DNA of 36,487 bases. Origin: a virus. This document shows positions 6,035 through 22,682 of this stretch, piece by piece. The stretch is from the IMG/VR virus record IMGVR_UViG_3300044675_000797, positions 1-36,487 of that record; one strand, 5' to 3'. Position 1 is the first letter of the stretch; each line of letters begins with the position of its first letter. The translations under genes were made by a program, and so were the position numbers. The notes under the pieces are model-generated. The model saw nothing but the letters and a program-made list of their open reading frames with translations. It did not search any database and was not told where the DNA came from.

Positions 6035-8229
6035 TGTGGCATTCCCATCTGTTGTTCTGGTGGCATTTCTTGCTGCGGAGGCATCATCTCCATAGGCATG
6101 GATTCCTCACGCATCTCAGGCATCTGGTTGACTGTGTTTTGCGACTCCATGGCCGCAGCAACAACACCCATGGCGATGTCTTGGATTTGTTCTTCGGTCA
6201 TGCCTGCCTGCACAGCGGCAATGCGCTTGGTTTCGGCGTCATAAAGTTTGATCTGAGCCTCAAAGTCTTTGCGCTCCATGTCTTGCATCTCAATAGATTT
6301 GCCGACATTTTCAATCATCTGGTGCATCTGCTCCATCTCAGCGCCCATGGCCTGAATTTGTTGCTGGGCCGCCTGCAATGCTGGATCGTCCTCGCCATCC
6401 GACAAGAACTTAGGATCAATGGTCTTGGCAAAGCGCTTGGACATTTCTTGGGCGCCAGGCCAGTCCATATTCTTAACAAACAAGTCACCGGCCACTTGCC
6501 ACAGTTGGGGATTACCCTGTAAGAGTTGAGCCATGGCTTCCAAAGCCTCTTGGCGCTTGGTTGCGTAGCCTGGGCCAGTCGTGGCCACCACATCGTACTT
6601 ACCAACGCCGGGGTTGTAAATCTTTTCGATCACAATGCCCTGCTCGTTCACAATCTTGTTGACGGGTTGAGGCTGGTCAGGGTTGATCTTGACCATCTTA
6701 GTCTCGCCATCTTCACCAATAATGCGGGCAATGCGCTGGGTGTCGTAAATCTTAGGGATCAAGTCCACCAACTGACGGGCCACATGGCGCACGGCACGGG
6801 TCAGGTTGTCACCATAATGGAAAGTACCTACATCACCCTCACGCTGGCGGGCCAAAATGGCTTTGCCAGAGCGCTCATTGCTTCCCATACCCAAAGAAGC
6901 ATTGTATTGACCAGTTGTGGACTTAATGTCCTCTGATGCACCCGCTTTGGCCTGCAATAGACCCGTAGAAGCCATTGGCGGCTGGGCACGCTGGGGTAGT
7001 GGCAACACCGCGCCTTGGCCGTCTGTAACGTCAGGATTTACTTCAAGATAAGGCCAATTGTTTGTGTTGGCTGTCTTCCATTTGTCCTCATAGCCCTCGA
7101 ATTGGCCACCATAGCCAATAAACGGAGCTTTGGGGGCCAGCGCCAGCATCTCAGCTTCCTGAGACACCCAGTAGTTGTACATGCGCTGGGCATCTTTGGC
7201 GTTACGCACCAAGCCAGAAATGTAGATACGGCCATCAACCTCGAATTCGTTACCAACAACACGGATTACTGGAATCCATTTGCCAGCCCACTCTTTTTGT
7301 TCAAGGATTTCGTAGCCGTTGATCTTGCAGTACATCACCCGTGGGCGCTCAGACATGCGTGATTTGACAGGCTTGCCAAACATGTCCTTGAGCATCTTGT
7401 CTTCAGGCGTGCCTTCAAAGGCCGACTGGTTGCCAGGGTACAAATTCAGTTTGGTTTTGTCGTAGTCAATGTAGTAATAACTAGCAATACGCACTGTGTC
7501 TTCATTAAGCCAGTTGCTGATCGACTGATCGCCTACACCAAGGGACTGGAGCGTAGAGATAGGCGCAGCATCAGGGTACTGGCGCTCATATTCTGCTTTT
7601 GTTAGGTCTTCGGTAATAAAACAATACTTGGCATCTGCACCCGTTGGGTCTTGGATCAGGGGATCCATGTAAACCGAAAAGGAGTTGCGAATACGGCCAA
7701 TTTTGATGTCTTGATCGAATGTGTTTTCGTCGCAGTACTCGGTCATTAGGGTGATGTAACCCTCGCCGTAAGACACTTGGTTCTCGCAAGCGGTGTCGTA
7801 AGCCACGTCAGCGTCAGAGATGTACTCGATGTGACGGATCATGCCGTTAAAAATGTCCGCGACTTCCACGTCGGCGTTGTCATCGACTGGAATGACCTTC
7901 GCGCCTGGGCGGTTCTGACGCATGTCATTCGTCACTTGACGAACGTGCTGCGGCAGTTTGTTAATTGTCAGGGTTGGGCGGGCGTTGATCGTCTGACCTT
8001 GCACCGCGCCACGGGTGGCCAGCACGTCAGCAGGCCACTGCCAATGATTGTCGGGTGATCCGGCATAAAAGCGCAGATCGTCAATTTCATCCTCACGGCT
8101 TTCAGCCAGTGCAGAGACAGCCATGTCCAACCGAGCGCGGGCGGTTGTCAGAATGTCTGAATCAGACTTTGGTGGTTTGCCGCCAGCAGCTACGTTAGCG
8201 GCTGCGACTATTCCGGTTGGATCATTCAT
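6031..8229 (-). CDS. Portal protein, P22 gp1-like
   Basis: Forms the dodecameric ring at the unique head vertex through which DNA is packaged and ejected. At 732 aa it matches P22 gp1 (725 aa) in length. The N-terminal region contains 'DDLRFYAGSPDNHWQW', 'RPTLTINKLPQHVRQVTND' and 'NRPGAKVIPVDD', a pattern I associate with the P22 portal family. The C-terminal 120 residues form a long helical, Gln/Met-rich tail (QQQIQAMGAEMEQMHQMIEN and MPMEMMPPQQEMPPEQQMG), like the helical barrel and disordered end of P22-type portals. The ATG overlaps the stop of the GroES-like gene (ATGA). It is followed by the DUF5856-like gene in the same arrangement. Confidence 0.92.
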   Translation of the reverse strand: MNDPTGIVAAANVAAGGKPPKSDSDILTTARARLDMAVSALAESREDEIDDLRFYAGSPDNHWQWPADVLATRGAVQGQTINARPTLTINKLPQHVRQVTNDMRQNRPGAKVIPVDDNADVEVADIFNGMIRHIEYISDADVAYDTACENQVSYGEGYITLMTEYCDENTFDQDIKIGRIRNSFSVYMDPLIQDPTGADAKYCFITEDLTKAEYERQYPDAAPISTLQSLGVGDQSISNWLNEDTVRIASYYYIDYDKTKLNLYPGNQSAFEGTPEDKMLKDMFGKPVKSRMSERPRVMYCKINGYEILEQKEWAGKWIPVIRVVGNEFEVDGRIYISGLVRNAKDAQRMYNYWVSQEAEMLALAPKAPFIGYGGQFEGYEDKWKTANTNNWPYLEVNPDVTDGQGAVLPLPQRAQPPMASTGLLQAKAGASEDIKSTTGQYNASLGMGSNERSGKAILARQREGDVGTFHYGDNLTRAVRHVARQLVDLIPKIYDTQRIARIIGEDGETKMVKINPDQPQPVNKIVNEQGIVIEKIYNPGVGKYDVVATTGPGYATKRQEALEAMAQLLQGNPQLWQVAGDLFVKNMDWPGAQEMSKRFAKTIDPKFLSDGEDDPALQAAQQQIQAMGAEMEQMHQMIENVGKSIEMQDMERKDFEAQIKLYDAETKRIAAVQAGMTEEQIQDIAMGVVAAAMESQNTVNQMPEMREESMPMEMMPPQQEMPPEQQMGMPQ

Positions 8230-8459
8230 TCCAAAACCCCTAAAATATGAGGCTCACGCATCACGACGTACATCTTGCCGTCTTGTTTAAATTCTTGCCC
8301 TACACCAAAGTATACGTGATCTCCAACCTTGATGTCTAAACATTTTGCGCCGACGGCTACTGCAATGCCGGTTTCAGTTTGTGAGTTCAGAGGCAATACA
8401 AACAAGGGATGCTTTTCAACATCTCGCTCAATGATGACGCAATCTTGGAGTGCTTTCAT
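8226..8459 (-). CDS. GroES-like co-chaperonin (Cpn10 fold)
   Basis: 77-aa protein aligning along most of the GroES domain. It opens '[18 protein letters not shown]', equivalent to 'RPLHDRVIVKRKEVE' of GroES. It continues with '[21 protein letters not shown]', equivalent to the 'GEVLAVG...DVKVGDIVIF' core, and ends '[13 protein letters not shown]', equivalent to 'LIMSESDILAIVE'. The segment in the mobile-loop position is short (about residues 17-30, [13 protein letters not shown]). It probably pairs with host GroEL to fold phage coat or another virion protein, as T4 gp31 does; that role is inferred. It overlaps both neighbours by 4 nt (ATGA), immediately before portal. Confidence 0.83.
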
Positions 8460-9436: not shown

Positions 9437-10962
9437 TACGACCCCATCCAAGATGTTGCAACCACGCCTCTGTCACTGTACGTGCGGCGCTGCGTGGATT
9501 CACGCGCCTCACGGTGGGCCACGGCAAAGGCAAAAGTCACGCAGATCGCGTCAGCCGCGTCTGGTGACGCCAAACCGCGCGCCTTCATGTCTTTTTTCGA
9601 CTCCAAGAAAATAGTACCCTTGGAGTCGGGCTTCATCATAGGCGAAATTAAATCAGTTTTAAGAAACCTGTCAAGCGGGATTGAAGCAGTTTTCAGCCAA
9701 TCCTTCATTTTGCCCCACATTTCGGCCCTTTTGTTGCCATACATGACCGGATTTGTCGATTTATTGCCAAAGTTGACACCTTTGACTTTGTACCTTTGCT
9801 CTTTCAAACGGTCAACAATGCCAGCCCCAAGGCCGCCTTCGTCAATCACAACTAAAGTAGGCTTGTATTCTTCAATCGCTTCGATCACATGGCCAACCAC
9901 GGTCATGGTGTCGTCGCCCCGATGGCGCTGGATAGAGATAATGTCCCGCCCCTGCCGCACAGCGATGACTGTTGCATCCGCGCCAAAGCGGGCGGGGTCT
10001 ACGCCGATCACAATTGGGGCACTTTGGTCTTGGTACTTAGGCCGTTTCATCGCGTCGTCTACCAAACTGACCGATATGAACTGATCGTCGCCTTCGGACG
10101 GGAACTGGCCATAGACCTCGACGTGCGCTTGGCTGGATTCGGGGCCGTACTCGTCGATGATCTGCTGATAGACCTGCTTGTCCGTCCCTTCAACCGTGCG
10201 GGCGTCAACTACTTTTGTAGTCCAGAACTCACGTTTGCTGTTGAAACACTCGTAAAAGTACCCCGTGTTGCGGCGCGGGTTGCTAAACGCCATCCAGAAT
10301 CTGTTGGGCGTGTTTTCTGTAAAGAAGCCCGAGGTCACCGCCCAGATGCTGTCGTCAATACCAGACGCCTCGTCAAACACGACCAGCACACCGTCGAAGT
10401 TGTGAACACCCGCGTAGGCGTCAGGATTCTCCGCTGACCAAAGCCTGCCCTCGACGCCCCAGTAGCGCGTGCCTTTCTTAAGATCGCGCTCGACCAACTC
10501 CGTGAGCCACTTGGCTGGCATGACTCTTGTTGCGCTAACTTCAAACCAATGGCTGTTGATGGCAGTGGCCAACCATTTGGTAATCTCGGCCCATGTGACT
10601 GAGCGTAGCTGAGACTCACTGTTGGCTGAGATGATGGTCGTCGAGCCAATGCGCGTTGTGAGCATCCAAATCGTGATCCATGACACTAACGCTGACTTAC
10701 CAATACCACGGCCAGAGCTAACCGCGCTTCTCAAGGTATTGAAGTCAACTAGGCCGTTGTTCTGTTTGATGTGGTCAGCGATCTCAGTTAAGACCTCACG
10801 CTGCCATTTGCGTGGGCCTTTGAAATGCTCTAGCGGCGTGCCAGGCTGACCCCAAGGAAACGCAAACATTACAAACGCCAGTGGGTTGTCCTTGATCGCT
10901 GGCGCCCACAGACGCGCCATGAGTTCCTGTTCGTCTTCAGCGCTGTATATGGTCGATTGCAT
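9436..10962 (-). CDS. Terminase large subunit (packaging ATPase-nuclease)
   Basis: Motor that pumps DNA through the portal and cuts it to length. At 508 aa it has a normal length. The ATPase domain has Walker A 'SSGRGIGKS' (residues 82-90) and Walker B 'VLVVFDEAS' with Asp197/Glu198. The RNase H-like nuclease domain has Asp322 in 'VIGVDPARFGADA', Asp374 in 'VVIDEGG' and Asp468/Asp471 in 'SPDAADAICVTFA'. All key acidic residues are present. The start overlaps the small subunit's end by 26 nt. A P22-type portal suggests headful packaging, consistent with a circular, permuted map, but the terminase type cannot be fixed by eye. Confidence 0.95.
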   Translation of the reverse strand: MQSTIYSAEDEQELMARLWAPAIKDNPLAFVMFAFPWGQPGTPLEHFKGPRKWQREVLTEIADHIKQNNGLVDFNTLRSAVSSGRGIGKSALVSWITIWMLTTRIGSTTIISANSESQLRSVTWAEITKWLATAINSHWFEVSATRVMPAKWLTELVERDLKKGTRYWGVEGRLWSAENPDAYAGVHNFDGVLVVFDEASGIDDSIWAVTSGFFTENTPNRFWMAFSNPRRNTGYFYECFNSKREFWTTKVVDARTVEGTDKQVYQQIIDEYGPESSQAHVEVYGQFPSEGDDQFISVSLVDDAMKRPKYQDQSAPIVIGVDPARFGADATVIAVRQGRDIISIQRHRGDDTMTVVGHVIEAIEEYKPTLVVIDEGGLGAGIVDRLKEQRYKVKGVNFGNKSTNPVMYGNKRAEMWGKMKDWLKTASIPLDRFLKTDLISPMMKPDSKGTIFLESKKDMKARGLASPDAADAICVTFAFAVAHREARESTQRRTYSDRGVVATSWMGS

Positions 10963-11374
10963 GCTGGGTGTTCTCTATGATTACGGCATCTTCTACAGTT
11001 AGCGCTCGCTTAGTTGCCTCGGCCAGCGCGCCAGTGATGGAGATGCGCTGATCCACTTCAACCGAGATAGCCTGCTTGGCCACCCAGCCGTGTTGATGTT
11101 TGAGGATTTCTAACGCTGCCTTGGCGTCGCCGTCTAGGGCTGCGGCGTGCATGACCTTGGACAGTTCAATCTCGCCATCCGCTTTGCCTTTTTGCGCGGC
11201 AAGTTCCACTACGGGGTCAAGTTGCGTGAGTTGCCGGTATTCAATAGGCAGCATGCCTGCGGCAAGCGCCAGTGCGTCGCCTTTGAGGCCCAGCTTGGCC
11301 GCGTCATATACCGCTTTCAAGCGCGACTCTGTCGCTTCGACCTTGCGCGGTGTAAATGGAATCGAATGGAACAT
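10937..11374 (-). CDS. Terminase small subunit (probable)
   Basis: 145-aa helical protein first in the late block. Residues about 15-60 resemble a helix-turn-helix DNA-recognition region (KAVYDAAKLGLKGDALALAA). The central part has 'HAAALDGDAKAALEILKHQH' followed by GW, a motif I associate with small terminase proteins. The start ATG at 11374 has GGAG 6-7 nt upstream. Its position directly before the large terminase, with a 26-nt overlap, is the standard arrangement. It would recognise the packaging site and load the motor on the concatemer. Confidence 0.85.
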   Translation of the reverse strand: MFHSIPFTPRKVEATESRLKAVYDAAKLGLKGDALALAAGMLPIEYRQLTQLDPVVELAAQKGKADGEIELSKVMHAAALDGDAKAALEILKHQHGWVAKQAISVEVDQRISITGALAEATKRALTVEDAVIIENTQHAIDHIQR

Positions 11375-11547
11375 GTGTTCTCCATGCTGTTTGCACGTAG
11401 TTGGGAGTTTACAACAAAAAAAATTTTAGCAAAGAAAAAAATTGTTCACGACCCGTACGTTTTCGCTGGCCCTTTGCGCTCGGCCCTACCCCCTCCCCCT
11501 CGGATCTTTTTTGCTTTTTTGCCCTGGTGCTGCGCGGCCGCATGGCT
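11375..11547. other. Non-coding leader between late genes and the octamer array
   Basis: No gene supported. Bases 11412-11443 are rich in A on the plus strand (T runs on the minus strand), followed by a pyrimidine-rich stretch around 11490-11520. The late (minus) transcript must begin here or further upstream. Weak promoter-like pairs can be drawn on the minus strand (for example TTGCTA with TAAACT at 15 bp), but none is convincing. Confidence 0.5.
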
Positions 11548-11752
11548 TTGGGTCACTTGGGTCATGTTGCACCAGGTCATTTGGTCCGCATGGCTGGCGC
11601 CAGCATGGCCGGTGGCCTTGGGTCATTTGGGTCATTTGGGTCATGGTTTTAAATTGCAAGCATGGCCATGCATGCCGGTAGATCTTGGGTCATTTGGGTC
11701 ATAGTTTTTTAATGACCCAAATGACCTAAAAGGTCATGGCCATGCGCGCGCG

Positions 11753-11766
11753 AAGCTTTAAAGCTT
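11753..11766. repeat. 14-bp perfect palindrome inside the octamer array
   Basis: AAGCTTTAAAGCTT reads the same on both strands. It sits directly before the octamer pair at 11766/11775 and shares its last base with the first of them. It could be a protein-binding site or a small cruciform; nothing more can be said. Confidence 0.6.
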
Positions 11767-11810
11767 TGGGTCATTTGGGTCATTTTGTCATCGAATAAAA
11801 ATCGGCGCCG

Positions 11811-11827
11811 GTAGACGCGTTGTCTAC
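11811..11827. repeat. Inverted repeat GTAGAC-n5-GTCTAC
   Basis: Perfect 6-bp arms with a 5-bp centre (gcgtt), at the edge of the AT-rich tract 11828-11887 within the octamer region. It has the size of a dimeric repressor or initiator site. No function is proven. Confidence 0.55.
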
Positions 11828-11887
11828 AATGCATGGTTTTATAGGTATTAACCCTTATATCAAAATCTTTTATTTTCTTAATTGGAA
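11828..11887. other. AT-rich tract (possible DNA unwinding element)
   Basis: About 60 bp dominated by A and T (including TTTTATAGGTATTAA and CTTTTATTTTCTTAATT), clearly more AT-rich than the GC-rich flanks. It is bounded by octamer pairs at 11766/11775 and 11892/11901. AT-rich stretches beside repeated initiator sites are the usual form of unwinding elements, so this supports an origin here, by inference. Confidence 0.5.
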
Positions 11888-12029
11888 ACCATGACCCAAA
11901 TGACCCAAAGCATATTGCAAGTGAGTATCTGCGCCGTTTTGCGCTTAGGTCAATCGACGCGCCAGCATGGCCAAAGCATGACCTAAAAAACCCAAAACCC
12001 TACAATGTTGAAGGTCATTAAAATAAATG

Positions 12030-12059
12030 TTGTGTAGTGTATATACGCTATGCTAATAT
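12030..12059 (+). promoter_or_regulatory. Sigma70-like promoter for the early small-gene cassette
   Basis: TTGTGT at 12030-12035 and TAATAT at 12054-12059 with an 18-bp spacer, about 50 bp upstream of the first early gene at 12112. The -10 hexamer is excellent and the -35 moderate. It is read away from the octamer array. An inverted repeat overlaps the -10. Confidence 0.65.
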
Positions 12060-12063
12060 AGCG
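12046..12063. promoter_or_regulatory. Inverted repeat over the early -10 (candidate operator)
   Basis: CGCTAT-gctaat-ATAGCG: perfect 6-bp arms with a 6-bp centre covering the -10 hexamer TAATAT. A protein bound here would block RNA polymerase at the early promoter. The binding protein is unknown. Confidence 0.5.
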
Positions 12064-12111
12064 TCACTGGCGTAAAAAACCGGTAAACACTAAACTAAAT
12101 TAAGGACCAAA

Positions 12112-12300
12112 ATGACAAAATCTGAAACACGCGAACTAGTCAAAATCATTGGCTATCTTGATGAATCTAATCTGCGCGGCATGGCTGCGCGCTCGCTGGC
12201 CACATTGATTCGCAGCACACGCGGCCGAAACACACGCGCAGAATTATTAGATTTTGCGCGCATCAATCGCTTGAATGAGCGCATCGAATTCAAAATCTAA
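12112..12300 (+). CDS. Small early protein, unknown function
   Basis: 62-aa basic, helical protein opening MTKSETRELVKIIGYLDESN, with many Arg residues (AARSLATLIRSTRGRNTRAE). AAGGA lies 6 nt before the ATG. It is the first gene after the early promoter and is followed by a terminator-like hairpin, so it may be transcribed in excess over the rest of the cassette. Size, charge and position would suit a small regulator or host-takeover protein, but I recognise no family. Confidence 0.75.
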   Translation: MTKSETRELVKIIGYLDESNLRGMAARSLATLIRSTRGRNTRAELLDFARINRLNERIEFKI

Positions 12301-12357: not shown

Positions 12358-12456
12358 ATGAAAAAAGCATTATTTTTAGATCTACTGGCCGTGATCATCA
12401 TCGCGGCTGCGTTGACAATCGGCGCGCTGGCCTATTTTGACATTCTCACAAAATAA
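12358..12456 (+). CDS. Single-pass membrane microprotein, 32 aa
   Basis: Frame opening MKKALFLDLLAVIIIAALTI and ending ...ALAYFDILTK. A two-lysine N-terminus is followed by about 22 hydrophobic residues, so one membrane helix with the N-terminus inside. AAAGG lies 8 nt before the ATG. It has good ribosome-site spacing and early-operon context, but the very small size keeps confidence moderate. It could alter the host membrane early in infection; no family recognised. Confidence 0.6.
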   Translation: MKKALFLDLLAVIIIAAALTIGALAYFDILTK

Positions 12457-12466
12457 GGGGCCGACC

Positions 12467-13219
12467 ATGAAAAAACCCCTAGGATATATTTTGTACGAAG
12501 GCCCTTCTATGATCGACGGTTCGCCGATTGTCGTTATCGTCAACAAAATCGACGGATCCGACAATGCCAAAACCGGCGCCATGGTCCAAACTTTTATTAT
12601 TCGGTCGGATATCGCGCCGGTGGCTGCGCTTCATTCTGGCGCCGATTATGCAATATGCGGCGATTGTGAGCACCGACCGATTTTGGCCAAAGATACTGGC
12701 GCGGCGCCATGCTATGTAAATGTGGGCCGTTCGGTCCGGTCGGTTTACGAAGCATACAAGCGCGGCCGGTATGAGCGCGCCGACACTGACACTATCGCGC
12801 GCGCCGTGGCCGGTTTACTCTTGAGAATCGGAACTTATGGGGACCCGTTCGCTGCGCCGGTCAAATACTGGCGCGCTTTGGTGCGATATGTGGCCGGACA
12901 TTCTGGCTATTCGCATGCATGGAAAAACCCAAATTTTGACCATGCAGCATGGGCGCCCTTGCTCATGGCCAGCGCCGATTCTATCGACGACGCGGCGCAT
13001 GCCAATTTATTAGGCATGCGGGTTTTTAGGGTTTCAATCGGCATTGACAAGCAAGCCGGGGAAACGACGTGCCCGGCCAGCGCCGAAGGTGGCAAGCGCG
13101 CCACATGCGCCACATGTTTATTATGCGCCGGGACAAGCAAGCAAGCGCGCGATATCGTTATTGCGGACCATGCGGCCGGTCATAAGCGCCGGGTTATTTC
13201 CATAGGGGTAGCAGCATGA
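12467..13219 (+). CDS. Cysteine-rich conserved phage protein (DUF7227/Gp88-like pattern), unknown function
   Basis: 250-aa protein opening MKKPLGYILYEGPSMIDGSP. The start at 12467 has AAGGGG 6 nt upstream; a longer frame to 12437 has no site. Two cysteine groups are seen: 'CGDCEHR' with Cys64, Cys67 and His69 plus Cys82 in 'CYVNVG'; and 'TCPAS' (Cys202) with 'CATCLLCAG' (Cys214, Cys217, Cys220). Between them lie conserved-looking 'RIGTYGDP' and 'GHSGYSHAWK'. I recognise the overall pattern as a common phage family that I believe is DUF7227, loosely like mycobacteriophage Gp88; this is from memory. Four-cysteine sets suggest bound zinc or an iron-sulphur cluster. No function is known to me. 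Confidence 0.8.
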   Translation: MKKPLGYILYEGPSMIDGSPIVVIVNKIDGSDNAKTGAMVQTFIIRSDIAPVAALHSGADYAICGDCEHRPILAKDTGAAPCYVNVGRSVRSVYEAYKRGRYERADTDTIARAVAGLLLRIGTYGDPFAAPVKYWRALVRYVAGHSGYSHAWKNPNFDHAAWAPLLMASADSIDDAAHANLLGMRVFRVSIGIDKQAGETTCPASAEGGKRATCATCLLCAGTSKQARDIVIADHAAGHKRRVISIGVAA

Positions 13220-14654: not shown

Positions 14655-16949
14655 TCACTTCACAAGGCGCACGGCCATGGGGGCCGGTAGATCCTCGACC
14701 ATGCGGCGAAGGTCCGATTTGCTCATGTTGGCCATGTCAGGCGCGCAAAATAGGTGTTTTTTACTTTGGAAATCACCCGAGGCCACGCGGCCAAGGTCGA
14801 CCCAGCCAGCTTCTTTCAGGGCATGCAATAGCGCAGGCTGGGGGACCTTCACGCCACTAGGCGCAGCGCCAGCCACGCGGTCACACAGTGCATGGAAGGG
14901 GGACGCCACCACGCCCTTAGAAAACTCGCCCAAACGTCCGCGCATCAATTCGACAAGGTAGGACTCGGCCATGCTCATACCATGCTCGACAAGGTTTAGC
15001 TTAAATTCGGTCATCATGGGCGCAGCGCCAGGATTAAAGGCGGACACGTCGCGGGCCTGCAGCCACGCGCCCACGGCGGCGAACCCGCCGGTTTTGTACC
15101 ACGCCCACATTTTGGCGGCGGCGTCGGCGGCCATGCGCGGGGCATGGGACCAGATGCACATCCAGCGGCGGTCTTGAGAATCTAAGCTAATCGGCACGGG
15201 GTCATTTGAGAATGCCAGCACAAACACGCGGTTGGCCATTTGATAGGGGTGCAGGCCCTTGCGGTTCACGGTCAGCATCTCAGGGGGCGCGGCGATGATG
15301 GGCTTCAGTTTATTTGCTAAGGCCCTTCTTTCCTTCGCGTCGGGTTCTTTCAACTCATTCAAGATCAGGATCTCGGACTCGAGGGCATAGCCAAATTGGC
15401 TGCTCATTGTGTCGTTGTCCAGCAGGCCACGGTTTTTAAGGTGCGGGCCACACACGGCCCAAATGAACGGCGCCCACATGGTATCTTTGCCGGACCCCTG
15501 GTCACCGCCATGCAGCACAGCGTGATTGATTTTAATGTTGGGGTGTTGCAGTTTGAAGGCCATCACGTTCAGGATGTGGTCCAACTCACGGGCGTCGGGC
15601 ACCAGTGTTTTGCAGTGATCCATCCAAGGCCCCACGTCACCAGCGGCCACGGTTGGCCGGGCATCGCGCCAGCGGTTGCCGTAAAGGTCACCGTCACGGG
15701 CCACAATGACCGACTCGCCTGCGGCGTAGGTGATGCCGACAAGGGCCTTGGCGCCCATGGTCTGGCGGTTCTCATCAAAGCACACGGACGCCTCGACCTT
15801 GGGGTTTTTGCCATGGATCGACTTGCAGGGGATGTGACGGAACAAAGCATTAAAGGTCTGGCGGGAGATCTCGCGGCGATCTTGCATGTCAAAGTAGGAT
15901 TCGTCGTCCTGAATGTACGCAAAGCGCTCATACCACTGCGCCTTCTCGACACGGCCCAACTCTTTGCGCTCGACCTCGGCGATCACGGCGGACGCGTCAT
16001 CGGTGAACATGTCGGACGGCGTCAACTTGGCCAGCGCCTGGTCCATGGCCATTGTCAGCAATTCTTCGCGCAGGCCCGGCGCATGCTTGGGTCCGCCATT
16101 GTCGGACACCCACTTGAGGAACACGTTCGAGTCAAGGTCGACGCAGTGGCTATGCAGACAGCGGTAGGCACGGTTGGCGGGCATGTAACGGCCCTCGGGG
16201 TTGCCGTCGGTGTGGTTGGCTGAATTGGGGCAGATGATGCCAGCCCAGCCTTCTTGGTTGGGGTGCGACAGCAGTAGACCTTGGCCACTGAGCCACGCCA
16301 TAACGTCATCAGCGCCGTCGTCCGACAAGCGAATTGGACGCACGCCGATAGAGTCGGCAGGCGCGGGCACCACGTCCAAGGCGGTGCAGATCTGCTCAAG
16401 GGTGAAGTCACGTTCGGGGTGGAATTCCACCAACTTGGCGGCGAAGTTTTCACGACCTGGCTTCAAGTTGATTGAGCCGGGCAGGCGGAAGTTACGCACG
16501 GCGTTGATGGCGCCCTTATCGGTGTAACCGGCGTCGGCAATGGACTTGATGGCCGCCGCGAAGTCGGCCTTGGTGGGCTGCTCTGAGAATGCATAGCCCC
16601 ACTGGAAGGAACCCGGCGACGTCTCAATTTTCCATGTCGGCTCGATGGGTGGGACCTTGGCCTTGGTGCCCACGTCGTCCAGCACCATGACAAGCACATA
16701 CTCGCAACACGCCACGCCAGCACTTGGGTGGCCGTCTTTAAATCGGTCGATGATAAAGCTGGCGGTGTTGCCGTAGATCGCCCAGTCTTTTTTGATGTTG
16801 GCCGTTGGCAGCATGGCGGGCCATGTGCATTTGATTGCGCCGTCTGCATGGAATTGCATCTCGCCATCTTTGAGCATGGGCTTTTGGCGCACGACCAAAG
16901 CAGTCTCACCCTCGGGCGCTAAAGAAATTAAAAATTCAAGAAAGTTCAT
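14655..16949 (-). CDS. Primase-helicase (AEP/RepB-like primase, DUF5906-type SF3 helicase)
   Basis: 764-aa replication protein. The N-terminal region holds an archaeo-eukaryotic-type primase pattern: 'YGNTASFIIDRF', the acidic pair in 'VMVLDDVG' (Asp91/Asp92), and 'RNFRLPGSINLKP' (about 152-164). A likely zinc-binding segment follows (Cys240, His246, Cys264, Cys269). The C-terminal helicase has Walker A 'GGDQGSGKDT' (481-490), Walker B-like 'ILILNE' (Glu532), and 'NRVFVLAFSND' as the sensor Asn. I associate this order with DUF5906-containing primase-helicases. It should open the fork and make primers for the polymerase encoded just upstream; the genes overlap by 4 nt (ATGA). Confidence 0.88.
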   Translation of the reverse strand: MNFLEFLISLAPEGETALVVRQKPMLKDGEMQFHADGAIKCTWPAMLPTANIKKDWAIYGNTASFIIDRFKDGHPSAGVACCEYVLVMVLDDVGTKAKVPPIEPTWKIETSPGSFQWGYAFSEQPTKADFAAAIKSIADAGYTDKGAINAVRNFRLPGSINLKPGRENFAAKLVEFHPERDFTLEQICTALDVVPAPADSIGVRPIRLSDDGADDVMAWLSGQGLLLSHPNQEGWAGIICPNSANHTDGNPEGRYMPANRAYRCLHSHCVDLDSNVFLKWVSDNGGPKHAPGLREELLTMAMDQALAKLTPSDMFTDDASAVIAEVERKELGRVEKAQWYERFAYIQDDESYFDMQDRREISRQTFNALFRHIPCKSIHGKNPKVEASVCFDENRQTMGAKALVGITYAAGESVIVARDGDLYGNRWRDARPTVAAGDVGPWMDHCKTLVPDARELDHILNVMAFKLQHPNIKINHAVLHGGDQGSGKDTMWAPFIWAVCGPHLKNRGLLDNDTMSSQFGYALESEILILNELKEPDAKERRALANKLKPIIAAPPEMLTVNRKGLHPYQMANRVFVLAFSNDPVPISLDSQDRRWMCIWSHAPRMAADAAAKMWAWYKTGGFAAVGAWLQARDVSAFNPGAAPMMTEFKLNLVEHGMSMAESYLVELMRGRLGEFSKGVVASPFHALCDRVAGAAPSGVKVPQPALLHALKEAGWVDLGRVASGDFQSKKHLFCAPDMANMSKSDLRRMVEDLPAPMAVRLVK

Positions 16950-22327: not shown

Positions 22328-22419
22328 TGTGGCCATTCCCACCTTTCCCAAACCCCAAGGACACGGGTAACAAAGTGCCCAAGTTCAACCCCGATAACTT
22401 TGAGGACGCACCACTATGA
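22327..22419 (+). CDS. Proline-rich microprotein, 30 aa
   Basis: MWPFPPFPNPKDTGNKVPKF... ending DAPL. The ATG overlaps the helicase stop by one base (TAATG), and its stop overlaps the next ATG (ATGA). Such double coupling is hard to explain by chance and supports a real gene. It has seven prolines in 30 residues, is hydrophilic and probably unstructured. No function known. Confidence 0.6.
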   Translation: MWPFPPFPNPKDTGNKVPKFNPDNFEDAPL

Positions 22420-22682
22420 TCCGCACCGACGAAGATGACGAATTTGACCGCATCGCCATGGAAAACAATCTTAAAGGTCAACCCTACTACTGGAGCGCCA
22501 TGGAAGTGGTGATCCACACCAAGCGCCTATGCCCCAAATGCACGGAAGTTAAACAGCTTTTGAGGGCTAAGAACATTAACTACGTCGAGATGGACATGGA
22601 GCCTAGTCCTGACTTGCCCCACATTTTTATCAATGGCAAGCGCGTCGATGGCTTGGCCGGACTACAGGAAGCACTTAAATGA
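22416..22682 (+). CDS. Glutaredoxin-like protein
   Basis: 88-aa protein. Residues 31-88 form a thioredoxin-fold glutaredoxin: beta strand 'EVVIHTKRLCPKC' with the dithiol active site CPKC (39-42), strand 'YVEMDME', the cis-proline segment 'LPHIFINGKRVDG' (Pro68) and a final helix. The first 30 residues are an acidic extension not typical of the family. It probably supplies reducing power to ribonucleotide reductase or acts on another disulphide partner; no reductase gene is in this genome, so the partner would be host-encoded. It overlaps both neighbours by 4 nt. Confidence 0.85.
   Translation: MIRTDEDDEFDRIAMENNLKGQPYYWSAMEVVIHTKRLCPKCTEVKQLLRAKNINYVEMDMEPSPDLPHIFINGKRVDGLAGLQEALK

Follow-up and report, generated by a model that had tools for sequence, protein, structure and literature searches.

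What is the function of a dense array of short repeats at the boundary between the late and the early genes of an uncultivated phage? The window, by which is meant the whole 36,487-base stretch analysed here, is a complete circular phage genome: 127 identical bases are common to both ends of the IMG/VR record and are an assembler overlap. It encodes a P22-like head and portal, lysis functions, a family-B polymerase, an exonuclease and a primase-helicase. Among named phages, DSL-LC05 from Dishui Lake is the closest in DNA, with 76% identity across 14% of the first 25 kb. The array occupies a 737-bp gap (11375-12111), the proposed origin, which is bordered on one side by the leftward terS (10937-11374, minus strand, start at 11374) and on the other by the rightward early genes (ORF62, start at 12112). 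The region is the non-coding divide between late and early transcripts that had been noted in a preliminary description of this DNA. Its position is syntenic in more than 100 relatives. Rfam and tRNA searches returned no match, and no clear turning point was found in the GC skew. A promoter-like sequence, TTGTGTAGTGTATATACGCTATGCTAATAT, is present at 12027-12060, ahead of the rightward early genes, and similar sequences occur in two relatives (L025 and L029).

Twelve exact copies of the octamer TTGGGTCA are located between 11548 and 11908, nine on the plus strand and three on the minus strand. In the whole window there are 14 exact copies against 1.07 expected, a number reached in 0 of 100 shuffles. 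No other 8-mer of the window is as dense locally: it has 12 copies in 470 bp, against at most five for any 8-mer in 40 third-order Markov nulls. Only two isolated exact copies lie beyond the gap, and the array stands as a local feature. Neighbouring exact copies are separated by exactly 9 bp in six pairs. The twelve octamers, their tandem 9-bp spacing and the presence of both orientations thus agree with the preliminary description. Of the near-copies that it also mentions, three, with the spelling TTAGGTCA (at 11722, 11945 and 11979), have a single mismatch, and further ones differ at two or more bases. The unit is better given as the 9-mer TTTGGGTCA, since the units of relatives align across nine positions.

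The left arm of the array comprises, on the plus strand, a tandem pair of TTGGGTCA with a 9-bp period (11548-11564), a tandem triplet (11618-11643), a further pair (11685-11701) and a last pair (11766-11782). An inverted pair, TTGGGTCA / TTAGGTCA (11713-11729, minus strand), faces the 11685-11701 pair over an 11-bp spacer. An AT-rich tract at about 11823-11882, which is a candidate DNA unwinding element, divides the array into two arms, as in the preliminary description; it is the lowest-GC 60 bp of the array (23% GC). In the right arm the orientation is reversed, with a tandem pair on the minus strand (11892-11908) followed by two variant iterons TTAGGTCA, at 11945-11952 (plus) and 11979-11986 (minus). 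GCATGGC / CATGGCCATGC motifs are also repeated among the iteron pairs, at 11538-11972.

Relatives, 273 loci in all, were gathered with TerL, ORF260 and the array pattern as queries and with DSL-LC05 included; terS was located in about 150 of them. The array is usually present in the gap of these phages, and similar arrays were found in about 95 non-redundant gaps, although their letters vary. Among held-out loci with enough flank, 32 of 89 have fewer than two tandem pairs. Unit spellings include TTTGGGTCA, TGTGGACAA, TGTGAGTCA/TGTGGGTCA, TGTAGGCAA, TGTGGGCWA and TGTTGGCWA, with additional ones in more distant phages; in all, there are at least 10 spellings and, on the TerL tree, about 20 switches between them. 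The copies inside one phage vary in concert. Phages with a TerL 91-97% identical to that of the window nevertheless fall into three unit classes (TTTGGGTCA, TGTGGACAA and TGTGAGTCA/TGTGGGTCA), the last with a period of 10 bp instead of 9. No such array was found in Manatee Spring phage ctNMl277, whose primase-helicase is 53% identical, and the early regions of DSL-LC05 and Rhodoferax phage P26218 differ from that of the window. In three loci (L063, L060 and L075), a second repeat family, consisting of GTTAGTGNNCACTAAC-form palindromes, lies by the array within the first 450 bases past terS.

The arrangement of the units is retained together with the array. In the 95 non-redundant gaps, 514 units are on the plus strand and 109 on the minus strand to the left of the AT-rich tract (514/623), and 271 of 315 are on the minus strand to its right (44 on plus). 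The lowest-GC 60 bp has a mean of 24% GC in the 95 relatives against 34% in shuffles, and a core similar to that of the window's tract, TAGGTATTAACCCTTATATCAAAATCTTT, can be read in L007 and L091. Inward-facing units around a central AT-rich tract are the layout of an iteron origin.

Which protein follows the unit was assessed by nearest-neighbour concordance with unit class among near relatives (TerL at least 91% identical). The primase-helicase (14655-16949, minus strand; 764 aa, with PF19263 DUF5906 at 479-595 and a primase-like N-terminus), the proposed initiator, reaches a concordance of 1.00 (p = 0.0002). The corresponding values are 0.49 for TerL (p = 0.17), 0.53 for TerS (p = 0.27) and 0.44 for PolB (p = 0.94); TerL and PolB were rejected as partners of the array for lack of covariation, and TerS, which adjoins it, was rejected as well. 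Within the primase-helicase, the association is weak for residues 1-280 (0.72, p = 0.006) and complete (1.00 each) for the segments from residue 281 onward. TGTGGACAA-type and TTTGGGTCA-type primase-helicases differ mainly at 441-480, 601-640 and 721-760 and are nearly identical over most of the intervening stretches. The array lies about 2.7 kb past the stop codon of the primase-helicase gene (median of 2.8 kb in relatives).

A scan of all 764 columns of the primase-helicase against each base of the unit places residue 725 (codon 14775-14777, minus strand) at the top for base 2. This base is G with Arg725 and T or A with Gly, Ala or Ser725. Three further searches for divergent primase-helicases gave 160 new proteins, 77 of them with a clean array, and the rule holds in 77 of 77 held-out loci and in 140 of 140 overall. 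Five training units were set manually, and 11 held-out rows were left out because automatic calling had chosen palindromes or other non-unit words there instead of a clean unit. Independent switches of base 2 agree with residue 725 in 7 of 7 cases on a primase-helicase tree built from residues 1-660, without the C-terminus, and in 8 of 8 on both the TerL and TerS trees. When near-duplicates are merged, 57 rows remain, in which residue 725 scores 0.74 and the next column 0.27, while the largest of 200 permutations for base 2 reaches 0.21. A natural variant is provided by L075, in which Ser725, set in a wing that otherwise resembles the TGTGGACAA type, accompanies the unit TATGGACAA, altered at base 2. 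Residue 728 (codon 14766-14768, minus strand) is the top column for bases 6, 7 and 8, and the rule that Asp or Glu728 goes with AC at bases 6-7 holds for 11 of 12 independent pairs. Its association with bases 6-7 is suggestive only, because there are five exceptions in 140 and the permutations are not exceeded after the collapse of near-duplicates.

Both residues map to a C-terminal domain (residues 641-764; 14658-15029, minus strand) that AlphaFold2 predicts to be a winged helix. The model, from 49 sequences, has a mean pLDDT of 83, with most of the core above 90, and comprises a helix, a strand, two helices, a strand, a loop (83-90), a strand and a helix. This is the predicted order of a winged helix (H-beta-H-H-beta-wing-beta) with residues 723-730 (14760-14783, minus strand) as the wing loop, the proposed specificity determinant from covariation; a model of the whole protein concurs on this loop. 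The fold assignment follows the topology of the model, since searching PDB structures with the isolated C-terminal domain gave nothing significant in Foldseek and only weak, generic winged-helix-like rows otherwise; P4 alpha was absent among the matches listed. The wing loop appears to read DNA, because unit spelling and loop change together in more than 100 related phages. In L297, L300, L303 and their relatives, another unit spelling, TGTGTGYCA, occurs with a GL[IV]HSR[DE][FY]N wing (Leu721, His723, Asn728).

The best PDB sequence match is the NrS-1 polymerase (E 2.8e-10), and in structure, too, the helicase part comes closest to the C-terminal region of this polymerase (Z 20.9, rmsd 8.8). 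The helicase part aligns in addition with the SaPI5 primase-helicase (7ola; Z 15.9, rmsd 4.5, 221 aligned). A D5/SF3-type helicase fold is common to SaPI5 Rep and the window protein, the likeness being one of fold only.

Taken with the predicted domain, the covariation points to an iteron origin read by the wing domain of the primase-helicase, a reading to which a probability of about 0.83 is assigned. An iteron-type origin was among the readings offered in the preliminary description, as was the primase-helicase as a possible binder; inward-pointing units at an AT-rich tract argue for the first, and the second is favoured by covariation of the unit with the primase-helicase and, within it, a single wing residue. 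We infer from these features binding by the primase-helicase, melting of the AT-rich tract, origin activity and replicon orthogonality. The gap at 11375-12111 would be the replication origin of the phage and the 9-mer TTTGGGTCA its iteron, bound in double-stranded form by the C-terminal winged-helix domain. The inward-pointing arms would load helicase subunits about the AT-rich tract (~11823-11882), which would melt; the helicase would then unwind the DNA, the N-terminal domain of the primase-helicase would prime and the family-B polymerase of the phage would extend. Reading would be shared between a near-invariant recognition helix, for the constant letters of the unit, and the wing (723-730), for the variable ones, with Arg725 matched to G at position 2 and Gly, Ala or Ser725 to T or A. 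Since origin and wing switch jointly, the replicons of related phages would be mutually mismatched and are probably orthogonal.

The covariation could also arise if the early region were inherited as one recombining block, with the real reader elsewhere in that block. The array and the C-terminus of the primase-helicase are within about 3.5 kb of each other, and linkage is a real caveat because orf71b, which adjoins the primase-helicase stop codon, also follows the unit in near relatives (0.95). Another small gene, orf82, is present in the TTTGGGTCA group and absent from the other two near groups. Both were considered as partners on the basis of this association in near relatives but were rejected, orf71b not being found in many distant array-bearing phages. 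The fit of one wing residue to one base, in 140 of 140 sequences and through many independent switches that include distant phages in which orf71b was not found, makes inheritance as a block very unlikely. Moreover, L091 has a breakpoint inside the gap itself: a relic TGTGGACMA array lies by terS and a TTTGGGTCA array by the AT tract, and it is the latter that its primase-helicase matches. A 4.6-kb contig (L172, 1-4635) joins a TTTGGGTCA array to a primase-helicase C-terminus of C/D type (GLLKSRAHTTKKH) and breaks the residue 725 rule, while its orf82 and orf71b are of the type that matches its TTTGGGTCA array; this contig may have arisen by chimeric assembly or by genuine recombination.

The divergent promoters at this boundary offer another role, that of an operator array for late and early transcription bound by an early regulator. 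The array is indeed upstream of the promoter-like sequence that precedes the rightward early genes, and orf82 and orf71b are associated with it in near relatives. However, the early genes that adjoin the array are not kept across array-bearing phages, orf71b was not found in distant ones and it is the primase-helicase that tracks the unit, so that an operator is less probable still than block inheritance. The primase-helicase may also repress early transcription as a secondary role.

The resemblance to NrS-1 suggests a third possibility, in which the units are primase template sites read in single-stranded form by the N-terminal prim-pol. NrS-1 polymerase recognises 5'-TTTGGTTA-3' and 5'-GTG-3' (PMC8718748), which resemble TTTGGGTCA and TGTGGACAA in their letters, and its C-terminal region gives the structural match described above. 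However, residues 1-280 covary weakly with the unit and the C-terminal parts completely, and the top-ranked column belongs to the predicted wing, so that template sites have a slighter chance again of being the explanation. Template reading by the N-terminus and iteron recognition by the C-terminus are compatible and can coexist. Least probable of all is a pac- or cosB-like packaging start bound by the adjoining TerS: the array is directly upstream of terS and terL, where lambda-type cosB sites are located, but TerS does not track the unit (its distance is 0.126 between unit classes and 0.123 within them), and on the TerS tree 17 changes of base 2 are required.

An iteron origin read by the primase-helicase finds its closest parallels in the P4 alpha/ori and SaPI Rep/ori systems, and by this analogy the best reading is that the origin works in a similar way. 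P4 alpha, a primase-helicase, binds repeats at the origin through a winged-helix domain (PMC4234260). The type 1 repeats of P4 are octamers, mostly TGTTCACC, with a spacing of 9 bp in crr (4314/4323 and 4494/4503) and of 10-11 bp in ori; octamer repeats, both orientations and the 9-bp tandem spacing of crr are thus shared with the window. However, P4 has a Toprim-type primase (PMC4234260) and the N-terminus here is RepB-primase/AEP-like, and P4 is a satellite with a crr whereas the phages described here have one array per genome and no crr, the two outside copies in the window being isolated. Comparison with a single P4 alpha sequence gave no significant hhalign match. In SaPI Rep and SCCmec Cch2, which are D5-type self-loading helicases, a C-terminal domain recognises short repeats at the origin (PMC7581432). 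A C-terminal domain would likewise be the reader of the repeats here, as the winged-helix model and the covariation suggest. In those elements the origin follows immediately on the helicase gene, whereas here about 2.7 kb with several ORFs would separate the two, the origin lying by terS. The passages used for this comparison describe no iteron/wing code for these proteins (PMC7581432).

Other systems share single features. Iterons adjoin an AT-rich region at the origin bound by the lambdoid O protein (PMC7466680), as they do here; however, that protein is unrelated and the lambdoid iterons are located within the O gene itself. The 8-nt site of NrS-1 is a primase template site that occurs just twice in its genome (PMC7102993) and, unlike the window's repeats, is not an array. 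In the PLE satellites of Vibrio cholerae, the iterons of the origin vary together with the part of RepA that binds DNA, and the two have been exchanged as modules on more than one occasion, probably under pressure from the ICP1 nuclease Odn (PMC8263062). PLEs use a RepA_N initiator and semi-palindromic iterons of about 30 bp and form two replicon classes, whereas the elements described here are phages with at least 10 unit spellings and a single-residue correlate. A profile search of six-frame translations of the fetched loci and flanks found no copy of the wing domain on another protein such as an Odn-like nuclease; the hits in the fetched flanks were short, mostly at contig ends, and consisted of primase-helicase sequence only.

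The balance tips slightly towards a multi-allele code, in which a clade of environmental podoviruses would repeatedly switch iteron and wing, near-identical phages would carry orthogonal replicons and specificity would be set by the wing, not by the recognition helix. Set against the likeness to P4 alpha/ori and SaPI Rep/ori, the best reading is that paired specificity switching is unusually fast in these phages. The driver is plausibly selection exerted by satellites, by nucleases that target origins or by relatives in the same cell. The origin, the initiator and the specificity residue of a large and largely freshwater group of uncultivated phages can in this way be given probable identities from sequence alone. 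The group also provides a natural series of matched protein-DNA pairs, in which one residue goes with one base through many independent switches. It raises the question of why phages with near-identical packaging and polymerase genes keep altering their origin code, like satellites under nuclease attack.

Several other genes of the window deserve mention. The early protein ORF260 (phrog_2554; 12437-13219) has counterparts in about 70 viral loci, with identities of 38-100%. A GroES-like (Cpn10) gene at 8226-8459 adjoins the portal gene, a glutaredoxin-like gene is present at 22416-22682 and a gene at 23549-24184 matches phrog_3704, annotated in PHROG as a ferredoxin.
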